From Cytophagales bacterium (GTDB lineage Bacteria; Bacteroidota; Bacteroidia; Cytophagales; Thermoflexibacteraceae), in NCBI GenBank assembly GCA_013299115.1, contig JAAFKA010000008.1, positions 1 to 64,000 on the forward strand: 64,000 nucleotides of DNA, given 5' to 3'. A program made the position numbers and the translations under genes. Shown one piece after another: positions 5,848-27,209 of this stretch. Positions within the stretch are counted from its first letter, which is position 1. The number at the start of each line of letters is the position of its first letter. The notes beneath the pieces were generated by a model that was not told the origin of the DNA, made no database searches, and saw nothing but the letters and a program-made list of their open reading frames with translations.

Positions 5848-7017
5848 ATGAATCGCAGAACATTTTTGCAACTCGCAGCTACCAAAACAGGTGGTTTGTT
5901 GCTTTTACCCAACTTTTTAACAGCTTTGCCCTTCGCACAGCAGCAGGCAGCTATCAACGGCAATGTGTTGGTATTTATTCAACTCAACGGAGGCAATGAT
6001 GGGCTGAATACCGTTGTGCCTTTTGAGAATCCCCTCTATTATGCCAGCCGACCTACGATTGGAATTGCCAAAGACAAAATAATTAATCCAATGAATGGTA
6101 TGGGCTTGCACCCCGCCTTGAAAGATTTTGCGACTATTTCCCAAGAAGGAAATTTGAGTATTATCCAAAACGTGGGCTACCCAAATCCGAACAGGTCGCA
6201 TTTTAGAAGTCAAGAAATATGGCAAACCGCAGCAGACAGCCACCAATACGTGGATTATGGATGGTTGGGTCGTTTTTTGGATATTCAATGCAAAGACGAC
6301 CTATTGCCCTCACTAAACGTGGACTCTATCGACAATTTGGCACTGAAAGCCACTAACGCCAACGGCTTGACAATCAAGGACTTCAAGAGAGTGAAAGACT
6401 ATGCAGACTCCGACAGCCAACTCCAATTATCGGACAATCCGCAATTAGATTTTGTGCGAAAATTGCAATATGATTCCTTAGAAGGAATGGAGGAAATTAA
6501 CAAGGCTTTGCAAAATGCCAAAAAATATACAGAAACTTATGCTACCAATCCATTGGCAAAAAATTTGGAATGGATAGGCAAATTGATTAAAGGCAATTTG
6601 GCTGCTAAGGTTTATTACACTTCGTTGGGCGGATTCGATACGCACAACAACCAACTGCAAAGCCACCAAAGGCAATTAACTGTATTGAATGATGCCGTTT
6701 ATTCGTTTTATAACGATATGAAAATCAACAACTTACTTAGTCAAGTTACGCTGGTGGTCTTTTCTGAATTTGGGAGGCGAATAAAAGAAAATGGTTCGGG
6801 TACAGACCACGGCACAGCAGGCGTATTGTTTGTGATTGGTGGCAACACCAAAGGCAAAATAATAGGCAAAAATCCCGATTTGAGCAACACAGACAAAGGA
6901 GATTTGCTATATGAAATTGATTTTAGGAGTGTTTATGCCACTTTGTTGCAAAAAAAATATAACTTTGACCCCACCCTTATCAATATCAAAAATGAGGTAA
7001 TAAAAGATTTGTTTTGA
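5848..7017 (+). CDS. DUF1501 family protein, probably exported
   Basis: A 389-residue protein with the DUF1501 landmarks VFIQLNGGNDGLNTVVP near the N-terminus, GLHPALKDF, NRSHFRSQEIWQTA, YTSLGGFDTHNNQ and VVFSEFGRRIKENGSGTDHG; the last resembles metal-binding motifs of the alkaline phosphatase/sulfatase superfamily to which DUF1501 is related. The N-terminus MNRRTFLQLAATKTGG followed by a hydrophobic run fits a Tat signal peptide. It directly follows the DUF1800 gene. Substrate and activity are unknown. Confidence 0.87.
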   Translation: MNRRTFLQLAATKTGGLLLLPNFLTALPFAQQQAAINGNVLVFIQLNGGNDGLNTVVPFENPLYYASRPTIGIAKDKIINPMNGMGLHPALKDFATISQEGNLSIIQNVGYPNPNRSHFRSQEIWQTAADSHQYVDYGWLGRFLDIQCKDDLLPSLNVDSIDNLALKATNANGLTIKDFKRVKDYADSDSQLQLSDNPQLDFVRKLQYDSLEGMEEINKALQNAKKYTETYATNPLAKNLEWIGKLIKGNLAAKVYYTSLGGFDTHNNQLQSHQRQLTVLNDAVYSFYNDMKINNLLSQVTLVVFSEFGRRIKENGSGTDHGTAGVLFVIGGNTKGKIIGKNPDLSNTDKGDLLYEIDFRSVYATLLQKKYNFDPTLINIKNEVIKDLF

Positions 7018-7023
7018 GGTTGT

Positions 7024-7785
7024 TTAGCAATACCCCATCAATTTATAGACGCAATAGCCCAATAATTCTTGAAATAAACGACTACTTTGAGCAAAGGCAT
7101 CTTCGCGTGGAATGAAGTAAATAGGATTCCAACTTCTATTGTGTGTAGTAAAATCGACACTAAAAGTATCTACTTTCAGTCCAACTTTGTCAAAACAGCC
7201 TTTGGCACGTCTAACATGGAATGCAGAAGTTATAACCAAATATCTTTGATTAGGAAATTTATTTGTCAAAAACCCTTTACTCAATAAGGCATTTTCGCGT
7301 GTGTTGCGTGAGTGTGGTTCTACAAAAATAGCAGAATCAGGGATTCCTGCTTGAATAAAAATTTCTCTGGCACTGCGGTAGTCAGGCGTGGTTTCTATGT
7401 CCAATTGATACTCTGCTCCGCAAATCAAAATGGCTTTAATCTTGTGCTCTTTGTATAATTTAATGGTATGTATTACCCTATCAGCAGCTTTGTTTAAATA
7501 AACTCTATCTGTTGGTTTTCGTCCTTCTTGAGCAAAACCTGTTAAGACAATTCCTACCTCATAGTTTTTAACCTCCAAAAAAGGCGTAGCAGGTATTTCC
7601 CACCACAGAAATAACTCATTTGCTAAAAAAGGGTTACTCAAAATTAACAAGCTACCAAATAAAAAAAGGAGTATTTTTTTTCTCCGTCTTTCATATTTGG
7701 TAAGCACAGCCCAACATAAACCCACCACCAACCAAGTCATAGGCATTATCAAAAGATATAGAGTTTTTGAGAGAAAAAAAAACAT
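7024..7785 (-). CDS. YdcF/SanA-like (DUF218) membrane protein
   Basis: This 253-residue protein starts with two hydrophobic segments (about 8-28 and 37-55) and continues with a DUF218 domain: VGIVLTGFAQEG, AADRVIHTIKLYKEHKIKAILICGA, the acidic/Arg stretch, EPHSRNTRENA, and YLVITSAFHVRRA near 190. Related proteins (ElyC, SanA, YdcF) influence envelope integrity in enterobacteria; the enzymatic reaction is not established. It converges on the DUF1501 gene with 6 bp between the stops. Confidence 0.85.
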   Translation of the reverse strand: MFFFLSKTLYLLIMPMTWLVVGLCWAVLTKYERRRKKILLFLFGSLLILSNPFLANELFLWWEIPATPFLEVKNYEVGIVLTGFAQEGRKPTDRVYLNKAADRVIHTIKLYKEHKIKAILICGAEYQLDIETTPDYRSAREIFIQAGIPDSAIFVEPHSRNTRENALLSKGFLTNKFPNQRYLVITSAFHVRRAKGCFDKVGLKVDTFSVDFTTHNRSWNPIYFIPREDAFAQSSRLFQELLGYCVYKLMGYC

Positions 7786-7880
7786 AAATTTTATCTGCTT
7801 ACTTAATTGGTAAATTTAGGCAATAAATTTGGAAAATGTAGTTTTTTTATAACATTTGTGATAACAAATCCAAAATTTTT

Positions 7881-8612
7881 ATGTTGATTTCTATCCAAAC
7901 AGCTCACAATGTAACCATAGAATATGCCATAGCCAGCGTAGCCGACCGTATCTTAGCAGTTTTGATAGATGGCTTGGTACAACTGGCTTATGCTTTGTTG
8001 CTTTTCTTTTTATTCGAATATTTAGATAATTGGGCAAACCTCAATATGCCAACTTGGATTTGGCTTACTGTTATTTATCTTCCTATTTTGCTTTATGAAG
8101 TCATTTCTGAAATAGCCTTGCAAGGGCAAACTTTGGGCAAAAAAGCCATGAACATCAAGGTCATACAATTAGATGGTAGCCAACCTTCGGTTTCTTCATT
8201 TATCATTCGTTGGTTGATACGGCTTTTGGAAGTTTCTACAATGGGAGGCTCTATAGCCTTAGTAGCCTTGTTTGTTTCCTCCAAAGGGCAACGGTTAGGC
8301 GACATAGCTGCCAATACAACAGTAGTCAAATTGCGACCATTGAATAAAATCAAAAAACCTACAATTTCTGAAATAGAAGATAAAGAAAGTTATTTGCCAC
8401 TTTTCCCTGAAGTAATAAAATTAACAGACAAAGATGTAAATGTAGCTCGTGAAGTCTTGCAAAGTTATAGAATAACAAATAACACAGAATTGGTAAAGAC
8501 CATGAACTACAAACTCAAAGAGTTATTGGGAATTTATCATACACCACTTAATGACATAGATTTTTTGAGGCAGTTGATTAAAGACTATGACAATTTAACA
8601 GCACATAGCTAA
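7881..8612 (+). CDS. RDD family membrane protein
   Basis: A 243-residue protein with an RDD domain in residues 1-150: the first transmembrane segment carries the Arg and Asp signature (ASVADRILAVLIDGLVQ), then a second hydrophobic segment (WIWLTVIYLPILLYEVI), the motif GQTLGKKAMNIKV, and a third region ending GQRLGDIAANTTVV. The C-terminal 90 residues are soluble and helical. RDD proteins are associated with ion transport or with spoIIM/DUF4129/MoxR clusters; here no such neighbour is adjacent, although a MoxR gene lies 5 kb away. Confidence 0.85.
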   Translation: MLISIQTAHNVTIEYAIASVADRILAVLIDGLVQLAYALLLFFLFEYLDNWANLNMPTWIWLTVIYLPILLYEVISEIALQGQTLGKKAMNIKVIQLDGSQPSVSSFIIRWLIRLLEVSTMGGSIALVALFVSSKGQRLGDIAANTTVVKLRPLNKIKKPTISEIEDKESYLPLFPEVIKLTDKDVNVAREVLQSYRITNNTELVKTMNYKLKELLGIYHTPLNDIDFLRQLIKDYDNLTAHS

Positions 8613-19006: not shown

Positions 19007-19627
19007 TTACTTAATCAACCCCAATCCTTCCAATGCTGAACTGTTGTTTGGACGGTTAAGTAGCACTTTTTGGAATAGCACTTTGGCATCTTTTTGATTA
19101 CCCAAAAAATACAAAGTCCAGCCACTCATCAACATAGCCTCGTAGTCAAAAGGATAGAGATTAAGCACCACGTCAAAGTATTTTTTGGCTGCGGTGTAGT
19201 TTTTTCGGTAGTAATAAATCAAACCTAACTTATAATTGGCAGATGAATTTTTGCTGTCGATAGCCAAAATAGCCAAATAGGTTTTTTCAGCATTTGCCCA
19301 ATCATTTTTGGCTATTTGTGGGTTCAGTACGCCCAAGAGAGGCTCAACGGCAGTGGTCATCAAGGCTGCACTTTTATTGTAGTAGCCTATGGATTTGTCG
19401 TATTGTCCCGCCAAATAATTGAGCCAACCCAAACGGAGATTGGTTTCGTAGCTGTTTTCAGTGTAGGCAACTTCAAGGGTTTTGATTGCCTCAAAATACT
19501 TTTTCTCTGCCTCTAATTGGTAGCTTTTGCTAAATGCTGCCAATAGTTCTGCCTGAATTTGGGCAAAAGTCAAATGACCAAACAAGACCAACAAAAAGGT
19601 CAAACTAATTTTTCTTAAAATTTCCAT
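19007..19627 (-). CDS. Exported tetratricopeptide-repeat protein
   Basis: A 206-residue protein with a signal peptide (MEILRKISLTFLLVLFGHLTFAQ) and about four TPR units, for example YEAIKTLEVAY-like FEAIKTLEVAYTENSYETNLRLGWL, ANYKLGLIYYYRKNYTAAKKYFDVVLNLYP and AMLMSGWTLYFLGNQKDAKVLFQKVL. Its ATG lies inside the end of the upstream gene (13-bp overlap, different frame), so translation of the two is coupled. With the upstream TPR/barrel protein it probably forms one envelope function. Confidence 0.82.
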   Translation of the reverse strand: MEILRKISLTFLLVLFGHLTFAQIQAELLAAFSKSYQLEAEKKYFEAIKTLEVAYTENSYETNLRLGWLNYLAGQYDKSIGYYNKSAALMTTAVEPLLGVLNPQIAKNDWANAEKTYLAILAIDSKNSSANYKLGLIYYYRKNYTAAKKYFDVVLNLYPFDYEAMLMSGWTLYFLGNQKDAKVLFQKVLLNRPNNSSALEGLGLIK

Positions 19628-20964
19628 TGGATTGTGCATTTTATTAAGTGATTGTGATAAAAATTATTAATTGTGTTTACTTCACTTACCCCTCTGATTT
19701 GCAAGTAATTAGCTTCTCTGAGTTGATAAGTATAGGCTGGTATGAATTGCAAGTTTTTGAAACTCACAACCAAACTACTGCCTGCTGTTGCCAAAATAGG
19801 CTCTATGGTGTTGTAAGAAGATAGCCCATCTTTTGACAAGTAATTTTGGTGGTTGCCATAGCTCCCACTAATTTCATACCCTAATTTTTTTGTCAATTTG
19901 CCTCCGATTGTCTGCAAAATCACAAATTGGTGCTTTTGGTTGTTGTTAAGGTAGGCTGCGGTGGTTTGCGTATAAAAATTGGTGTTGCCCAAGGGATACC
20001 ATAACCAACCAATTTCGGTTTGTAGTTGTTGCACCTTACTCAAATTACCTGCCGAAAAAGCAAACTGAAAACCCATATTTTTGTGTCTTTTAGCCAGATA
20101 TACCCCTCCTGACCACGCCTGATGTCTATAAGGCTTGTCTATGTAGGTCAAACGAAAAGCAGCAGGATTGTAAACTGTGGAAAAATAGTTGGAATTTTCT
20201 TGGTAAAAACTTCCAAAACCTCCCAAAGTCCAGCCTTTTTGCAGGGCGTAATTGCCACCCAAAACATAGCTAAAATTTGGATTATCATAGTTCCGTTTTT
20301 GCGTTGGTTCAAAGGCACTTTGCACCACGCCCAAGCCTTGCACCTGAAAAAAACTAAGGTTGTGATATAAATTTAGCCTGTTGCCTATTTTGGTATTCAG
20401 ATACAAATTGCCCAAATAAGCCCCGCCTTGTAATGTATTTTCTGCATAAACATTGCCTTGCCTGAAATCTTGATTTTGGAGGTTAAAATTATTGTTCAGA
20501 AATACGCCACCTGTTAAACCAATGGTTTCAAAAGCAAACTTTTTTGTCTTGTTAGTTTCAAAACCTACTTTTTGTTGCATTTCGGGTTGCATTTTAGCTG
20601 CCAAAGTTACTGCATCGGCAGTTCGCAAAGTAAATTGCAAAGCCCAATAGTAATATTCTTGCCCCAAGGTATCGGCAGGATTCATTTGATATGCTCTTTC
20701 GAAGTGTGCCAAAGCCCTTTCATAATTTTGCTCTGCATAATAGACTGCACCCAACCGCAACCGCAAATCATAGCCATCTAAGCCTTGTTTCAAAGCCTGT
20801 TGTGCGGTGGTTTTCAGGCTTTTATAGTCTTTTGTTACCCACTGCCAATAGGTCAATTCTACTACCTCATCATATTGCAAAGGCTGTTGAGCCAATGCAA
20901 AGAAAGAGGAGCAAAAAAAGCAAAAAAACGATAAAAAAAGTGTTTTTTGTGTTTTTAGGCACAT
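19615..20964 (-). CDS. TPR plus beta-barrel outer-membrane protein
   Basis: A 449-residue protein with a signal peptide ending ALAQQ, two TPR-like units (GYDLRLRLGAVYYAEQNYERALAHFERAYQMNP) in residues 60-110, and a C-terminal barrel of about 280 residues with repeated strands (GNLYLNTKIGNRLNLYHNLSFF, GWTLGGFGSFYQENSNY, NMGFQFAFSAGNLSK) ending in IQWKF. It overlaps the start of the TPR gene downstream. I do not recognise a named family; the layout suggests an outer-membrane protein with a periplasmic interaction domain. Confidence 0.75.
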   Translation of the reverse strand: MCLKTQKTLFLSFFCFFCSSFFALAQQPLQYDEVVELTYWQWVTKDYKSLKTTAQQALKQGLDGYDLRLRLGAVYYAEQNYERALAHFERAYQMNPADTLGQEYYYWALQFTLRTADAVTLAAKMQPEMQQKVGFETNKTKKFAFETIGLTGGVFLNNNFNLQNQDFRQGNVYAENTLQGGAYLGNLYLNTKIGNRLNLYHNLSFFQVQGLGVVQSAFEPTQKRNYDNPNFSYVLGGNYALQKGWTLGGFGSFYQENSNYFSTVYNPAAFRLTYIDKPYRHQAWSGGVYLAKRHKNMGFQFAFSAGNLSKVQQLQTEIGWLWYPLGNTNFYTQTTAAYLNNNQKHQFVILQTIGGKLTKKLGYEISGSYGNHQNYLSKDGLSSYNTIEPILATAGSSLVVSFKNLQFIPAYTYQLREANYLQIRGVSEVNTINNFYHNHLIKCTIQWKF

Positions 20965-21606: not shown

Positions 21607-23850
21607 TTAGTAAAGATACTCACACAAAAAAGTTGTTTTTTCGTTAATTACCCACTCTTTTAGGCTATTTTCTTCAAAATGCAGTGCATAATTTCTTTGT
21701 AAGTGTGTAGTTTTGCCAATTTTATTGGTAACAAAAGTTTTTAAAGCTACTTGTTTGGGATTGAAGGCTGCATCAACTTTCTGGACAGCCGAAGTATAGG
21801 CATTGGTGCTGAATAGAAAAAAAGGTGCTGCAAAATCCTGCAAACCAGCCAAAGCCCAAGGTCGCAAAAAGTGCAGAGGTACAGTGTCTTGCACCTCCAA
21901 ATTGGTGTAACAAGCCAACAAAATTTTGTAGTTTGCTAAGTAAAAATCAAATAACAAACTATTGGTATCTCCCTCATAATCATAGCAATAGAACATCGTG
22001 CCATCGTTGGCAAACCACAAAGTAGCTTTGCTTTTTGGGCAGTAGAAATAGCTTCGGTTGTAAGCATCTGTGTAAACAGTCCATTCCCAAATTTCGGCAG
22101 GGTTGGCTTTGTTCGTCAGTCGCAGGCGGCGGCTGGGTTGCCAATCGTAGGCAGCCACCAACAAAGGACTAACCTCTACGTTGCTAATACGGTCATTTTT
22201 TTGTGGCACTTCAAAAGTTTTGAGTTCCCAACTCGGTGCTTGTCCGTTTTGCTGCCCTTTATTTTGCTTACTAACTTGCTCACCAACTTGCTCATGATTT
22301 TGCTCTTTATTTTTCCGTTTGAGGTAGTAAGCAAGTGGATAAGGATAAGTTTTTTCTCCAATTCTTGGCGAAAGTTGCAACTGAAAGTGAATGTGTGGCT
22401 CTGGCGACCTGCCCGAATTGCCACAAGTAGCCAACATTGCACCTTTATACACATAGTCACCTATTTTTACCCGAATACTGTCTTTTTTGAGGTGAGAAAG
22501 TTGCGAAAACAATCCGTTTTGGTGGTTGAGAATAATAGTATTCCCCCAATTTTTTTGCGTATCTACCGAATTGATTGGATTTTCTTCTACTGTATTCACA
22601 ATATCGTAAACATAACCATCATGTGGGGCAAGCACAGGCTTGTTGTAACAATAAAAATCTTGCAATTCTGTCCCGTAATTCTGAAAAGTGGTGTGTCCGT
22701 CTTCGGTTATCACAAAATCCAGTGCCTTACTCCATTCGCCCAAGTGCGTAATTTCGCCATCGTATGCCTGACTTACAGTCCATTCGCCCCAAAAAGGCAG
22801 AGCAAACCTCGCCAAGTTGATATTTTTAAACCTCAATGTGGTAGAAAGGTGCTTGTAAATGGTTTTTTCGGGTGAATAATATTGCAAACTCACTAATTGA
22901 ATGGTGTTGTGCCATTTGTAGTGGTGGGCAAAAAACAAAAACAAGTGCGTAAGCAAAGTGAATGACAAGGTAAAAGATTTGAGTTGAAAAACAGCCAATA
23001 TTTGGTTGATGCTGACCATAAAGACGCACAAAATAGGCACTAACAGCACCACAAAACCATAACTCCATCGACTTGGAATGAGAAAAAAGCCTCCCACTGC
23101 AATAGCCAAAAATATAAAATTGCTACCAACCAAATAATCTGTAAGCCAAATCATGGGCATACCCAATAGCTTAAATGTGAGAACAGCCAGATAAAAACCC
23201 AACAAAGACAAGCTAAATGCAATGCGTGAAAAATAGAGCAAACCCAAACTAATCAACAGCCCTGCCAACACTGAATTTTGGAAAAAAGTAGAGGCAAGGG
23301 TTTTAAAGTAGCTGCTCAACAATTCGTGCAGGGGCAAGTTGTCTAAGCTGTGTGCCAACCAATAAACGAAAGAGGAGGAAACTTTTGCTTTGTAATTTTC
23401 TACAAAAATCATTTCCTCTTGCAACAAAACGTATTCGAAAGCACCTGCCGAGAGGTAAACCAACCAATAGGTAAACAAAAACGGCAAAGCCAAAAACGGC
23501 AAGCCGTAGTTGCCTAATTGGTGGCTTAACCAAACAGTGAGCAACAACAAAAGCAAAGCAGCCACCAAAAACAAGACGCAAAAAGCCAAATTGAATTGGT
23601 ACTCATGCCCCAAAGCCAAACCCAAAAGCAAGGCATTGAAACTGTATGAGCCTTGTGCTATGGCTGTTTTGTCTAACCTAAACAGCACTGCCAATCCATT
23701 GACCAAGACTATACAAGCCAAACCACAAGCCCCCAAAAAAGGGCTGATAAATGTTACCAACAAGACAACAACTGCCAAGACCTTGTTTTGCGAAAAAAAG
23801 ATTTGGGCATAGCTATTTAAAATGCTGTTGAGAAAAAATTTAATGGTCAT
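21607..23850 (-). CDS. Urea transporter fused to an M23-family peptidase domain
   Basis: A 747-residue inner-membrane protein. Residues about 1-310 are strongly hydrophobic and resemble the urea transporter family (LACIVLVNGLAVLF, GSYSFNALLLGLALG, LALPFLFTYW, and a second related half around 190-290). Residues about 350-520 form an M23 (LytM-like) domain: HLGEWSKALDF near 366, APHDGYVYDIV, HLKKDSIRVKIGDYVYKG and the zinc motif PHIHFQ near 485. A Gln/Asn-rich linker and an uncharacterised 190-residue C-terminal domain follow. Urea-channel/M23 fusions occur in other Bacteroidota. The combination suggests a channel with a periplasmic wall-binding or cutting domain. Confidence 0.85.
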   Translation of the reverse strand: MTIKFFLNSILNSYAQIFFSQNKVLAVVVLLVTFISPFLGACGLACIVLVNGLAVLFRLDKTAIAQGSYSFNALLLGLALGHEYQFNLAFCVLFLVAALLLLLLTVWLSHQLGNYGLPFLALPFLFTYWLVYLSAGAFEYVLLQEEMIFVENYKAKVSSSFVYWLAHSLDNLPLHELLSSYFKTLASTFFQNSVLAGLLISLGLLYFSRIAFSLSLLGFYLAVLTFKLLGMPMIWLTDYLVGSNFIFLAIAVGGFFLIPSRWSYGFVVLLVPILCVFMVSINQILAVFQLKSFTLSFTLLTHLFLFFAHHYKWHNTIQLVSLQYYSPEKTIYKHLSTTLRFKNINLARFALPFWGEWTVSQAYDGEITHLGEWSKALDFVITEDGHTTFQNYGTELQDFYCYNKPVLAPHDGYVYDIVNTVEENPINSVDTQKNWGNTIILNHQNGLFSQLSHLKKDSIRVKIGDYVYKGAMLATCGNSGRSPEPHIHFQLQLSPRIGEKTYPYPLAYYLKRKNKEQNHEQVGEQVSKQNKGQQNGQAPSWELKTFEVPQKNDRISNVEVSPLLVAAYDWQPSRRLRLTNKANPAEIWEWTVYTDAYNRSYFYCPKSKATLWFANDGTMFYCYDYEGDTNSLLFDFYLANYKILLACYTNLEVQDTVPLHFLRPWALAGLQDFAAPFFLFSTNAYTSAVQKVDAAFNPKQVALKTFVTNKIGKTTHLQRNYALHFEENSLKEWVINEKTTFLCEYLY

Positions 23851-23975: not shown

Positions 23976-25331
23976 TTATCCTATTTTCTCCAAATGTTCA
24001 GGCAGTCTTTCATAGCGGAGCATAGTATCCAAACTTTCTTTTTCTCTGATAACGTGTGGTGTGCCGTCCATACCAATCATTACAATTCGAGGACGCATCT
24101 GAATAAATTGCATCCACTGGGTCATATTGTAAGCTCCTACGCGGTGAACTACTACTTGGTCGCCTTTGTTGAGCAAGGGCAAATTGATACTTTCCCGCAC
24201 CACATCAATATTCATACACAAAGGACCATATAAAACCATATCTTCTGTTTGTGATGAAATTTCTTGAGCAGGCGAAATGCGGTGATTGTACCAAAAAGAA
24301 GTAAACAACAAATTCACGCCAAAGTCCATAATAGTTGCTCGTCTGCCATCACTCAATCTTTTAATGGCAATGACACTGCCCAACAAATAACCTGCATCAT
24401 CTATCAAAGCCCTACCTGTTTCTAAAAACAAAGTTGGCAATTCGTCCATCTTGAAACCATAGTTCAAAATGGTGCTGGTAATAGCCTCTGCATAGTCGTC
24501 CATCGTTGGAATGATGTCGCCGCCTTGCAAATAAGACCCTTTCAGCGTATTGGCAGAGGCAAAACCACCGCCCAAATCCAAATATTCTATGTTTTTGCCG
24601 TATCTATATTTCACGTTGATAGCCAAATCGCAAAGTTTACTTGTGGCTACGCTGTATGCGTGTGCAGTGAGCATATATGTACCTATGTGGCAGTGCAAAC
24701 CAACCAATTCTAATTCAGGGTGAGCAAAAATCTTGTTGATAGTAGCCCAAGCAGTACCATTTTCATAGTTAAAGCCAAATCTGTCCCACATGGGATATAC
24801 ACCTGTGTCCATATTGACCCGAATGGCTACCCTTGCTTTTTTCTTAATTTTGCCCAATACTTCAACTAACATATACAACTCGTCTGAGTGGTCTATGTGA
24901 ATTAAAGAGTTGTTTTCAACGGCTTTGATTAGGTCCTCCTCCGATTTGTCGGGTCCATTGAAAATAATTTTTTCGCCTGCCACACCATTTCTAAGGGCTT
25001 TTTCATACTCAAAAATAGATACGACCTCAGCCCACGAACCTTCTTGGTGAAAGACATTGCAAACGGCATTGAGGTAGTTGGTTTTATAACTCCACGCAAA
25101 CTGCACTTTGGGGTATCTGGTTTTGAATGCCCGCACTGCATTGCGATAGGTGTTGCGGATAGTCCTCTCCGAAATCACAAAACAAGGAGAGCCATAATCT
25201 GCAATCAATTTTTTGACAGACACGCCGTCTATGTGGGTTACAGGAGCAAATTCTGTTCTTGTCCCAAATTTATTCATTGTACCAGTGTTTAACTTCGTAA
25301 TCACTGGTCTTTCATAAGATATTTTTGCCAT
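23976..25331 (-). CDS. LysA-like PLP-dependent decarboxylase with leader-like N-terminal extension
   Basis: A 451-residue fold-type III PLP enzyme of the diaminopimelate/ornithine decarboxylase group. The PLP lysine is K83 (FAWSYKTNYL), followed by LVGLHCHIGTY, IEYLDLGGGFA, FLETGRALIDDAG, and the substrate/catalytic cysteine segment YGPLCMNIDV. An extension of about 35 residues precedes the barrel and contains SYERPVITKL (5-14), similar to the YxxPxL motif in RiPP leader peptides that binds PqqD-like RRE domains. It lies downstream of PqqD-like and ATP-grasp genes. The substrate may be a carrier- or peptide-linked amino acid rather than free diaminopimelate; that is inference. Confidence 0.83.
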   Translation of the reverse strand: MAKISYERPVITKLNTGTMNKFGTRTEFAPVTHIDGVSVKKLIADYGSPCFVISERTIRNTYRNAVRAFKTRYPKVQFAWSYKTNYLNAVCNVFHQEGSWAEVVSIFEYEKALRNGVAGEKIIFNGPDKSEEDLIKAVENNSLIHIDHSDELYMLVEVLGKIKKKARVAIRVNMDTGVYPMWDRFGFNYENGTAWATINKIFAHPELELVGLHCHIGTYMLTAHAYSVATSKLCDLAINVKYRYGKNIEYLDLGGGFASANTLKGSYLQGGDIIPTMDDYAEAITSTILNYGFKMDELPTLFLETGRALIDDAGYLLGSVIAIKRLSDGRRATIMDFGVNLLFTSFWYNHRISPAQEISSQTEDMVLYGPLCMNIDVVRESINLPLLNKGDQVVVHRVGAYNMTQWMQFIQMRPRIVMIGMDGTPHVIREKESLDTMLRYERLPEHLEKIG

Positions 25332-25351
25332 TGTTGTTATGTTTTTTGGTT

Positions 25352-25525
25352 TACGTTGGCAATGGTCGCAGACCTTGACAATCGTATATTTAGTTTTTTT
25401 TCTATGTTAGCAACAACTTAGTTTATACGGTTGTCAAGGTGCAAAAGCACCATTGCCAACGTACTTAAATAATCGTAGTTTTTTCGTTAGTACGATTGTC
25501 AAGGTCTGCGACCATTGCCAACGTA
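25352..25525. repeat. Three hairpin-arm repeats
   Basis: TACGTTGGCAATGGTCGCAG... at 25352-25386 is followed by reverse-oriented relatives at 25426-25463 and 25491-25525 (TACGATTGTCAAGG...CCATTGCCAACGTA), so the group folds into long hairpins. The same family occurs at 32680-32759 and 63599-63685. It separates the LysA-like and ATP-grasp genes. Confidence 0.88.
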
Positions 25526-25565
25526 CTTTCAGTTCCCCCTTTGGGGGTTAGGGGGCTTTTGCTTT

Positions 25566-26621
25566 TTACAGTTCCCCTGTTGTTGATATTTTTTCAAACT
25601 CCGAAAGATTGACTATTTGGTCGTAGCTATAACGAATAAACATTTTGCCTACCTCGTAGTCTTTAAAAGGCTTTACTTTCTTGCCCAACGCCATTTTTAC
25701 AAGGGCTTCAGGGTGATTTTGCCCACAACCTACAGCCAAATAGACCCAGGCAGGAAAACGAGGATTCATTTCCAAGAGGTAATATTCTCCATCTTTTGAT
25801 TTGATAAATTCCAATTCGCAACCTCCTTTCCATTTGGAATTGGCAATGACAGTTTGGGCAATTTCTACCAATTTTTCGTCTGCCAACGAGATGCCAGCCC
25901 AAGCCTTGCCTTTATCTGTAATGTAGAGTTTTCGCATAGGAACAGCCCCCATGCAGTTGCCTTCGCCATCGCCAACGGCTGTTACGTTTACCTCATTGCC
26001 CGAAACAAATTCTTGAATAATGACAGGCAAGCCCCACTTTGCCGATATTTTGTAAAAATAATTGACAGCTTGTTCGGGTGTAGAGGCAATTTGGGCATCA
26101 TAATATTTGCCCTTCACTGCCACAGGATAGGTAAATTCACTGCCTAATTGGTAAATGTCGTTAGGCGAAAACACCATTTTTGCAAAGGGGACTTTCACGC
26201 CATTTTCTTTGCCAAATTCATACAAAACCGACTTGTGCCTTGACTCAAATTGTTTTTGGGTGGGCAAAAAAGTTGCAATGTTGTACGCATTTTTCAAAAT
26301 ATCTGCTACTTTGATAAAATTGTGCAGTTCGGCATCAAAGTTTGGAATAATTACATCTAACTTTTCCTGTTGGTGAATATAGTGCAGCCTTTCCAACAAA
26401 GGTTGCGTACCCACCGAAGGCATAGGAATTTGGTAGGATTTGTCCACCAAGTCGTGCATATACAGCCCTGGCTCTAAGGTTTCGTAGCTTAGTCCAATGA
26501 TTCTGACCTCAAAGGCTGTACTTTCTTTCAATGCTCGAATAACAGGAATACCCGGTCCTGGCGAGTCTATATTGTTCAGCCCTGTTACGGCAACGGTTAT
26601 TTTTTGCTTTTTCGTACTCAT
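25566..26621 (-). CDS. ATP-grasp ligase (CarB/PylC-like)
   Basis: A 351-residue ATP-grasp enzyme. The N-terminal pre-ATP-grasp domain begins ITVAVTGLNNIDSPGPGIPVIRAL, and the ATP-grasp core shows TYPVAVKGKYYDA (ATP-binding lysine), GLPVIIQEFVSGNEVNVTAVG, GCELEFIKSKDGEYYLLEMNPRFPAW, the last with the Mg-binding Glu/Asn. ATP-grasp ligases join a carboxylate to an amine through an acylphosphate. Its ATG overlaps the stop of the PqqD-like gene in ATGA, so they are translated together. The partner substrate is probably presented by the PqqD-like protein. Confidence 0.88.
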   Translation of the reverse strand: MSTKKQKITVAVTGLNNIDSPGPGIPVIRALKESTAFEVRIIGLSYETLEPGLYMHDLVDKSYQIPMPSVGTQPLLERLHYIHQQEKLDVIIPNFDAELHNFIKVADILKNAYNIATFLPTQKQFESRHKSVLYEFGKENGVKVPFAKMVFSPNDIYQLGSEFTYPVAVKGKYYDAQIASTPEQAVNYFYKISAKWGLPVIIQEFVSGNEVNVTAVGDGEGNCMGAVPMRKLYITDKGKAWAGISLADEKLVEIAQTVIANSKWKGGCELEFIKSKDGEYYLLEMNPRFPAWVYLAVGCGQNHPEALVKMALGKKVKPFKDYEVGKMFIRYSYDQIVNLSEFEKISTTGEL

Positions 26622-26863
26622 ACTTCAATGAGGATTTGGTAACTTTTCAAGACCATAAAAAAGTCGGCAAGGTCTTTTTCTGCCGTTGCTTTGTCCACCG
26701 AAAACGTATCGGTGAGATGTTTGTAGAGGTCGTCTATGGAAGCCCCTTTTTGGAGTTGCCTCAAAATCTCCTGCCCCACCCTGTTGGTGTTGAAAGAGTC
26801 GCCTGTGAGGGGGTTAAACACAAACCCTGTTTCGCTGATGGCTATATTTTTGTTGATGTTCAT
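26618..26863 (-). CDS. PqqD-like peptide-binding (RRE) protein
   Basis: An 81-residue protein (start at MNINKN; the longer frame enters repeat DNA) with a PqqD-like winged-helix layout: strands IAISETGFVFNPLTGDSFNTN, then helices VGQEILRQLQKGASIDDLYKHL and VDKATAEKDLADFFMVLKSYQI. PqqD-like RRE domains bind leader peptides or protein tails and deliver them to modifying enzymes. It is the first gene of the cluster with the ATP-grasp and LysA-like genes. It also resembles PqqD proteins of HPr-related systems, but no kinase is present here. Confidence 0.82.
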   Translation of the reverse strand: MNINKNIAISETGFVFNPLTGDSFNTNRVGQEILRQLQKGASIDDLYKHLTDTFSVDKATAEKDLADFFMVLKSYQILIEV

Positions 26864-26869
26864 ATTTGC

Positions 26870-27066
26870 TGTAGTGCGGACTTCAGTCCGCATTAAAAAG
26901 TTCCTGTAGTGTGGACTTCAGTCCACACCAATTTATTTTAGTGTGGACTTCAGTCCACACCAATTTATTTTAGTGTGGACTTCAGTCCACATCAATTTAT
27001 TTTAGTGTGGACTGAAGCCCACACTACATTTTTTTATTTAGTGTGGACTGAAGTCCACACTAAATT
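26870..27066. repeat. Array of six short palindromes
   Basis: Palindromes of the form TAGTGTGGACTTCAGTCCAC recur with a period near 36 bp (about 26873, 26915, 26940, 26976, 27005, 27041), the first being a TGCGGACTTCAGTCCGCA variant. It lies between the divergent PqqD-like cluster and a sensor kinase. Each unit is its own inverted repeat, so it is not a CRISPR array; it may terminate transcription or be a proliferating REP-type hairpin. Confidence 0.88.
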
Positions 27067-27209
27067 TTAACTTCAGATTACTTAAACAAAGGTGCAAAGA
27101 ATATACAAGACAAGAAAAAAAACTCGGAGAATGGGGAAAATGTGTCGGAGTTTGGAAATATAAACAATTTTTTTAGTATTTTTGGGTAGCCAAAGTAAAG
27201 CATAACCAA

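Follow-up and report, generated by a model that had tools for sequence, protein, structure and literature searches.

What does a RiPP recognition element (RRE; RiPP, ribosomally synthesized and post-translationally modified peptide) bind at a locus where no precursor peptide gene was found? RREs are used in genome mining to find peptide pathways, and it is difficult to make sense of one that no precursor gene accompanies. Such a case is presented by a stretch of 64,000 nucleotides (hereafter the window; positions 1 to 64,000 of contig JAAFKA010000008.1, assembly GCA_013299115.1) from a Cytophagales bacterium. It carries a cassette of genes coding for a discrete, PqqD-like RRE, an ATP-grasp ligase, and a LysA-like decarboxylase that has the alanine-racemase fold and depends on pyridoxal phosphate (PLP). 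An initial annotation had read these genes as a pathway in which an amino acid is ligated to a peptide or protein carrier and decarboxylated there. The gene trio itself is confirmed by our analysis: its positions, the shared minus strand, the overlap of four bases between the ATP-grasp and PqqD-like genes, and the Pfam assignments all hold (Table 1). The account that we favor on balance is that the cassette would form a tethered biosynthetic unit, in which the RRE docks the N-terminal tail of the decarboxylase to the ligase, and a small molecule is made and exported.

The three genes form one real, conserved unit. We surveyed 296 genomes of the phylum Bacteroidota, 27 of which, across 14 family codes, encode an ortholog of the LysA-like protein at E<=1e-40, and compared the gene neighborhoods over 12-20 kb around the LysA-like gene at each of these 27 survey loci. 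The orthologs from the other 26 genomes are 47-69% identical to the window protein. An ATP-grasp ortholog lies next upstream of the LysA-like gene in all 27 loci, and a PqqD-like gene lies beyond it in 26 of them as judged by tblastn and in 27 as judged by a profile search; one locus (L037) has an extra gene between the PqqD-like and ATP-grasp genes. The order PqqD-like, ATP-grasp, LysA-like is common to all 27 genomes, which bears out the trio as one unit and disposes of the possibility that the other two genes do not accompany the LysA-like gene elsewhere. In a second collection, the contig set, made up of the best 80 of at least 581 stretches from named-species contigs that encode a LysA-like relative at E<=1e-3, the ATP-grasp gene is present in 72 of 74 loci whose sequence extends far enough upstream, and the PqqD-like gene in 70 of 71. 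Of the two loci counted as lacking ATP-grasp, L091 does have the gene, which is hidden by an over-long LysA ORF (open reading frame) that overlaps it; the other (L080) is weighed below.

Further surveys, whose draws overlap the first one, covered 92, 98, 245, and 395 genomes, of which 4, 1, 25, and 75, respectively, carry the LysA-like gene at E<=1e-80. The last draw was made from the class to which the window belongs, where the cassette is frequent; six of those 75 genomes were left out of the locus set (G778, G650, and G786, which gave partial matches, and G772, G658, and G718). No plasmid-borne ortholog was seen among the 121 plasmid records that match at E<=1e-20, all of which stay below 60% identity, with the ten listed at 27-31%. 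Our literature searches, whose coverage lay outside most subscription journals and preprints, returned no recognized description of the cassette. These are known parts in a new arrangement, widespread and apparently unstudied. Moreover, the operon seems to run on downstream and to comprise about six genes, more than the trio.

By its sequence, the LysA-like protein is not a LysA. It scores 220.4 bits against the lysA model TIGR01048, below the cut-off of 297.9, and the idea that it might be the sole lysA of this genome fails on a genuine lysA elsewhere, on contig C12, that reaches 399.7 bits and carries the motifs IRP and CES. Its nearest solved structure is 7kh2, an N-citrylornithine decarboxylase (sequence E 7.9e-61, profile E 3.7e-88, Foldseek ranks 1-4); against the FslC model it attains 238.3 bits, again below the cut-off, which is 500. 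In FigC, Met355 takes the place of the acidic neighbor of the catalytic Cys, and the Arg that holds the substrate in diaminopimelate decarboxylase gives way to Thr and Tyr residues (PMC7857480, in part). The window protein has Met373 beside its catalytic Cys, aligned to the FigC Met and invariant in 26 aligned orthologs, and Thr344 aligns with the position of the diaminopimelate-binding Arg, as in FigC. The protein shares its fold and PLP-binding motifs with enzymes of ordinary lysine or polyamine metabolism. A role there, as the product of another lysA or as an ornithine decarboxylase, is scarcely credible in view of the C12 gene, the score under the lysA cut-off, and the replacement of both the diaminopimelate-binding Arg and the acidic neighbor of the Cys; we rejected the second-lysA candidate on these grounds.

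Because the residues that read diaminopimelate are replaced, the enzyme is predicted to act on something else. FigC, SbnH, AcsE, MccE, and BtrK act on conjugated amino acids and fall into one clade with diaminopimelate and D-ornithine decarboxylases; His357 and Arg387 of FigC are the proposed citryl-binding residues, as judged from docking (PMC7857480, in part). In the window protein these two are replaced by I375 and Q405 (by profile alignment, with an inferred constant offset of 19). The LysA-like enzyme thus probably decarboxylates a conjugated amino acid, and we infer a conjugate whose distal part is uncharged. To this extent the initial proposal that decarboxylation occurs on a conjugate finds support in the closest relative; its other component, an RRE that presents a separate precursor peptide, is not supported, as set out further below.

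A leader-like feature of the decarboxylase lies ahead of its folded part. In the AlphaFold model, whose predicted local distance difference test (pLDDT) score averages 88.2 and falls below 50 at residues 7-25, the first strand comes after residues 1-32, and the match to 7kh2 begins downstream of the motif in this tail. In the window the tail reads Y-E-R-P-V-I, followed by G...N-K-F-G. The pattern [YF]xxPx[ILV]...K is conserved in all 107 loci of the survey and contig sets together. In a wider set of 197 loci, which amount to 184 sequences distinct over the last 380 residues and count some genomes twice, 196 possess the motif, and the remaining one differs solely at the F of KFG. The first tail residue is Tyr in 177 of these loci and Phe in 20, while the Pro and the Lys are each present in 197 of 197. 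A tail that is conserved yet predicted to be disordered is what would be expected of a docking peptide.

We searched 292 genomes with a profile of this tail. The LysA-like proteins of all 27 cassette genomes were recovered at E<=1.4e-9, by construction since the profile was built partly from them; the informative result is that no others were, the next match of any kind lying at 1e-3. A second tail-bearing protein above noise was not found in these genomes, and the other matches within cassette genomes, which begin at E 0.035, were taken as noise. The LysA-like enzyme therefore appears to be the only protein above noise that carries this leader in the genomes searched.

The PqqD-like protein, the sole match to PF05402 in its genome at E<=0.001, appears by sequence to be closest, among solved structures, to the discrete RREs of lasso peptide systems. 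When a profile of 20 family members was compared with the PDB, TbiB1 (8.2e-13) and TfuB1 (4.2e-9) came first, followed by 9x90 (3.7e-5) and 9x8z (0.0046). Discrete lasso RREs recognize the motif [Y/W]xxPx[L/V/I/F/A]; Asp70 of LppB hydrogen-bonds the leader Tyr, and the double substitution G42N/Q79D makes PbaB1 accept a tyrosine leader (PMC13381572, in part). The YxxPx[ILV] tail of the decarboxylase fits this client motif in all but 20 of the 197 loci, those in which Phe replaces Tyr. The tyrosine-selecting positions map to Asn37 and Asp74 of the window RRE (with an inferred constant offset of 18, and numbered in a form of 91 residues that starts at an in-frame ATG at 26893 and is ten residues longer than the one in Table 1). 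Asp74 aligns with the column of LppB D70 and PbaB1 Q79, in which TbiB1 and TfuB1 likewise carry Asp.

These positions could be compared in 189 loci, since no PqqD-like ORF is present in eight of the 197 (L066, L077, L080, L100, L109, L136, L154, and L208), mostly contig ends or short stretches. Asn occupies the Asn37 position in 187 of the 189 RREs, the other two showing gaps. The first tail residue and the residue at the Asp74 position pair as Tyr-Asp in 167 loci, Phe-Tyr in 18, and Tyr-Asn, Phe-His, Phe-Phe, and Tyr-Ser in one each; the Tyr-Ser row is L126, with an assembly gap in its RRE gene, so that Asp is found in 167 of the 168 intact loci with a Tyr tail. Counted as distinct pairs (177 in total), the numbers are 155 Tyr-Asp, 18 Phe-Tyr, and one each of Tyr-Asn, Phe-His, Phe-Phe, and Tyr-Ser. 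In a scan of tail and RRE position pairs over 125 loci, the pair of the first tail residue and Asp74 ranks at the top (Z 6.8), and the Asp74 column alone among the RRE columns separates Tyr from Phe tails without error, the next column explaining 59%. The sequences thus suggest two concerted switches at the very residue pair that is named by a crystal contact. A third Tyr/Phe switch was not found in the 92, 98, 245, and 395 further genomes, which added only more members of the Phe clade.

We looked for a separate precursor peptide and rejected it as a candidate. Among small ORFs (20-130 amino acids) within about 5.5 kb of the 107 loci, no family occurs in more than five loci, and the tail profile returned nothing beyond the LysA-like proteins above noise; both searches would overlook a precursor whose leader is unrelated or whose gene lies far away. 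The initial remark that no precursor gene is visible consequently holds, and the role it gave the RRE, that of presenting a separate peptide, is not borne out. Of the hallmarks of a RiPP cluster, the RRE is present, whereas a precursor gene with leader and core was not found in the 107 loci, where one with an unrelated leader would escape. Neither a lasso cyclase (asparagine-synthetase-like) nor a leader protease was recognized among the ten families present in at least 4 of the 27 survey loci (c8 and c9 unscanned), nor was an acyl-carrier protein gene among the families common to at least 4 of the 27. A conventional RiPP-like route, in which the RRE serves a precursor whose gene lies elsewhere or escapes calling by its shortness and the tail of the decarboxylase is a secondary anchor, would agree with the finding that discrete RREs occur most often in lasso peptide and pyrroloquinoline quinone clusters (PMC12710340, in part). 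Given the scarcity of shared small-ORF families and the lack of a second tail bearer above noise in the cassette genomes, we consider it improbable.

In the mechanism that we propose instead, the lasso-type RRE would grip the free YxxPx[I/L/V] tail of the LysA-like decarboxylase rather than a precursor peptide and would also contact the ATP-grasp ligase, so that ligase and decarboxylase are held together. The ligase, whose family profile finds 2pn1 as its best PDB match (E 5.4e-16) and carbamoyl phosphate synthetase next, would form a side-chain amide on an amino acid or couple an amino acid, again by its side chain, to an acceptor. From this conjugate the decarboxylase would then strip the alpha-carboxylate, in the manner of FigC, SbnH, and BtrK. 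The product, probably an exported small molecule, would pass to a urea-transporter-like channel with an M23 hydrolase domain and leave via TPR and barrel proteins encoded downstream. The computations show the linkage of the genes, the conservation and predicted disorder of the tail, the kinship of the RRE with lasso RREs, the covariation at the contact residue, and an active site not made for diaminopimelate; the binding of the tail, the complex with the ligase, the order of the reactions, and the export go beyond them as inferences. If this is true, some RRE loci that lack a precursor gene are assembly lines for small molecules, and others could be found directly by the tail motif.

Several points weigh against this proposal. 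A carefully built tree that combines the 20 Phe rows with 38 Tyr rows hand-picked for diversity (58 rows in all) requires two changes of the Tyr/Phe label, and a single change suffices on none of 200 bootstrap trees; the well-supported branches alone force a single switch. Two changes are likewise required on a quick tree made from 125 rows. A test for covariation by independent pairs is powerless since there are too few such pairs. The runner-up of the pair scan joins position 14 of the tail to the same Asp at nearly as high a score (Z 6.3), a sign that lineage accounts for part of the covariation. L126, its RRE gene broken by the assembly gap, was excluded from the scan, the test, and the careful tree. 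At locus L080 the genes are separated near a contig end. The putative contact between RRE and ligase draws on gene order and analogy, and the presumed decarboxylase activity on homology. Finally, the half of the tail beyond the RRE motif (G, K, FG) is conserved as strongly as the motif itself, which simple docking does not explain.

The first of these points feed the alternative that tail and RRE co-occur for some other reason, such as stability or localization, and that the match of Tyr and Asp is a coincidence of two lineages. There are two Tyr/Phe switches only, and tail position 14 correlates with the same Asp nearly as well. Nevertheless, a crystal contact from a different system had pointed to this RRE column before it emerged in the top pair of the scan, and the nearest relatives of the RRE family are RREs whose solved structures include YxxP-type leaders, so that we judge such a coincidence quite unlikely.

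The channel assigned to export in the tethered-unit proposal is a fusion of a urea transporter with an M23 peptidase, and its gene follows the LysA-like gene in all 27 survey genomes. At E<=1e-30, the fusion profile matches 34 of the 296 genomes, namely the 27 with the cassette and seven others that match the transporter or the M23 part alone; with the three best candidates per genome scored, the whole fusion was seen only in cassette genomes, in two of which (G005 and G255) it is split or shortened. The fusion model (mean pLDDT 86.3) matches urea transporters (3k3g) and M23 peptidase structures. The metal-binding and catalytic residues of the M23 site, H369, D378, H453, H486, and H488, are retained in 18 of 18 fusion sequences. 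The Glu of the GEVIFQ motif, as found in an unfused urea transporter (L185), is replaced in all seven compared rows of the 18-member fusion family, and the cargo of the channel is therefore likely to be something other than plain urea. Charge counts show a concentration of basic residues in the N-terminal loops of the fusion and behind its final membrane helix. Together with the known orientation of urea transporters, this pattern would put the M23 domain in the cytoplasm, but the unfused relatives of the domain (L176-L184 and L186), eight of ten of which show an apparent signal peptide by eye, point to the periplasm, where it may reside instead.

The conserved distal half of the tail and the M23 domain together raise the alternative that the decarboxylase itself is modified: the RRE would present the tail to the ATP-grasp enzyme, which would ligate a group to it, most likely on the invariant Lys21. 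The charged Lys21 would be a carrier arm or a regulatory adduct, and the M23 domain could later hydrolyze the bond. RREs normally present a leader so that the part that follows it is modified, Lys21 is invariant in 197 of 197 loci despite predicted disorder, and the M23 domain belongs to the operon in all 27 cassette genomes of the survey, on the cytoplasmic side by charge counts. On the other hand, Lys21 lies only about a dozen residues from the folded domain, and, judging by the secreted appearance of eight of ten unfused M23 relatives, the hydrolase may lie in the periplasm. We regard such a modification as unlikely. In a more specific version, which we put forward because the conserved Lys21 past the grip of the RRE is unexplained by docking, the enzyme would be self-carrying: the ATP-grasp enzyme would charge Lys21 with an amino acid via its side chain, the PLP site of the same protein would decarboxylate it, the M23 domain, located in the cytoplasm, would free the product, and the fused channel would export it. 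The probability of this chain of events is, in our judgment, low; if it were true, RiPP recognition would have been shifted from peptide maturation to the assembly of small molecules on an enzyme's own arm.

Beyond the fusion, a TPR protein is encoded downstream in 23 of 25 survey loci and 53 of 58 contig-set loci with enough sequence. The type in which TPR is combined with a barrel is found on the same strand in 11 of these 25 and 56 of these 58 loci, respectively, and the barrel alone in another 11 of the 25 survey loci; L038, L045, and L054 show neither barrel type there. The barrels are probably outer-membrane barrels, as read from the sequences; Pfam reports TPR matches and, for one protein, a porin match below the cut-off. 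The features of the window locus are collected in Table 1.

Table 1. Position and assignment of the cassette genes, their key sites, and the downstream genes in the window
Feature	Position	Strand	Size and assignment
PqqD-like discrete RRE	26618..26863	minus	81 aa; Pfam PqqD PF05402, 41.8 bits (cut-off 23.4)
RRE Asp codon (D74 in the 91-aa form), covarying with the first tail residue	26672..26674	minus	
ATP-grasp ligase, carbamoyl-phosphate-synthase-like branch	25566..26621	minus	351 aa; ATPgrasp_Ter PF15632, 42.2 bits (cut-off 29.1)
LysA-like alanine-racemase-fold PLP decarboxylase, with N-terminal tail	23976..25331	minus	451 aa; Orn_Arg_deC_N, 110 bits (cut-off 23.4); Orn_DAP_Arg_deC, 47.5 bits (cut-off 23)
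Leader-like tail motif of the LysA-like protein	25263..25316	minus	Y6-E-R-P9-V-I11-T-K-L-N-T-G-T-M-N-K21-F-G23
Urea-transporter/M23-peptidase fusion	21607..23850	minus	PF03253, 150.5 bits; PF01551, 56 bits
TPR protein with apparent signal peptide and probable outer-membrane barrel	19615..20964	minus	449 aa; best Pfam TPR match 27.8 bits, below cut-off (32.7)
Second TPR protein, apparent signal peptide	19007..19639	minus	210 aa; Pfam TPR above cut-off

Some further observations concern the surroundings of the cassette. Directly upstream of the PqqD-like gene, at 26885-27075, runs a series of near-identical palindromic units (TGTGGACT...AGTCCACA), a dispersed repeat with 86 matches in the genome at E<=0.001, itself included. 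Inverted copies of TACGTTGGCAATGGTC... lie at 25340-25530, inside the gap of 234 bases between the ATP-grasp and LysA-like genes; at the survey loci these genes are separated by fewer than 25 bases or overlap in 21 of 26 cases, as judged from ORF calls. A protein family encoded upstream of the PqqD-like gene (L050-L058) is present in 13 of the 27 survey loci, directly before the cassette in several of them; both scanned members (L052 and L044) possess a type IX secretion sorting domain, and the family may represent a cargo or surface partner. At L080, the LysA-like gene (6717-8075), with its tail intact and apart from RRE and ligase, adjoins an ORF that resembles dnaA by eye. A contig titled Bifidobacterium breve (L119) bears a Bacteroidota operon whose LysA-like protein is 76% identical to that of the window, and is most likely a mislabelled bin.

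Several parts of the cassette resemble parts of studied systems. The channel matches the dvUT/SLC14 urea transporters by fold and Pfam, from which it differs by its fusion to M23 and a further domain and by the replaced Glu of GEVIFQ. The proposed chemistry resembles that of FigA/FigC (FslA/FslC) in rhizoferrin synthesis, where a ligase conjugates an amino acid and a decarboxylase of the alanine-racemase fold then acts (PMC7857480, in part). The decarboxylase shares with FigC the Met beside the catalytic Cys and the Thr at the place of the diaminopimelate-binding Arg; it differs in the two citryl-binding residues and remains under the FslC cut-off, and the FigA-type ligase is an NIS (nonribosomal-peptide-synthetase-independent siderophore) synthetase, whereas that of the cassette belongs to the ATP-grasp enzymes. 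In butirosin synthesis, BtrJ loads the carrier BtrI. The homologous decarboxylase BtrK acts on the glutamate bound to BtrI (PMC7857480, in part), and BtrJ-like proteins belong to the ATP-grasp enzymes and are classed together with carbamoyl phosphate synthases (PMC4431377, in part). Here the cassette differs in having an RRE instead of an acyl-carrier protein, none having been recognized among its conserved genes. As for the lasso/LPP RREs, their client motif stands in the cassette on an enzyme of 450 amino acids, not on a precursor peptide, and no cyclase or leader protease was recognized among the conserved neighbors. Even so, TbiB1, FusB1/TfuB1, LppB, and PbaB1 are the nearest solved relatives of the PqqD-like protein, the tail of the decarboxylase, their putative client here, fits the [Y/W]xxPx[L/V/I/F/A] motif by sequence where it begins with Tyr, and both the Asn and the Asp that select a tyrosine leader are kept.

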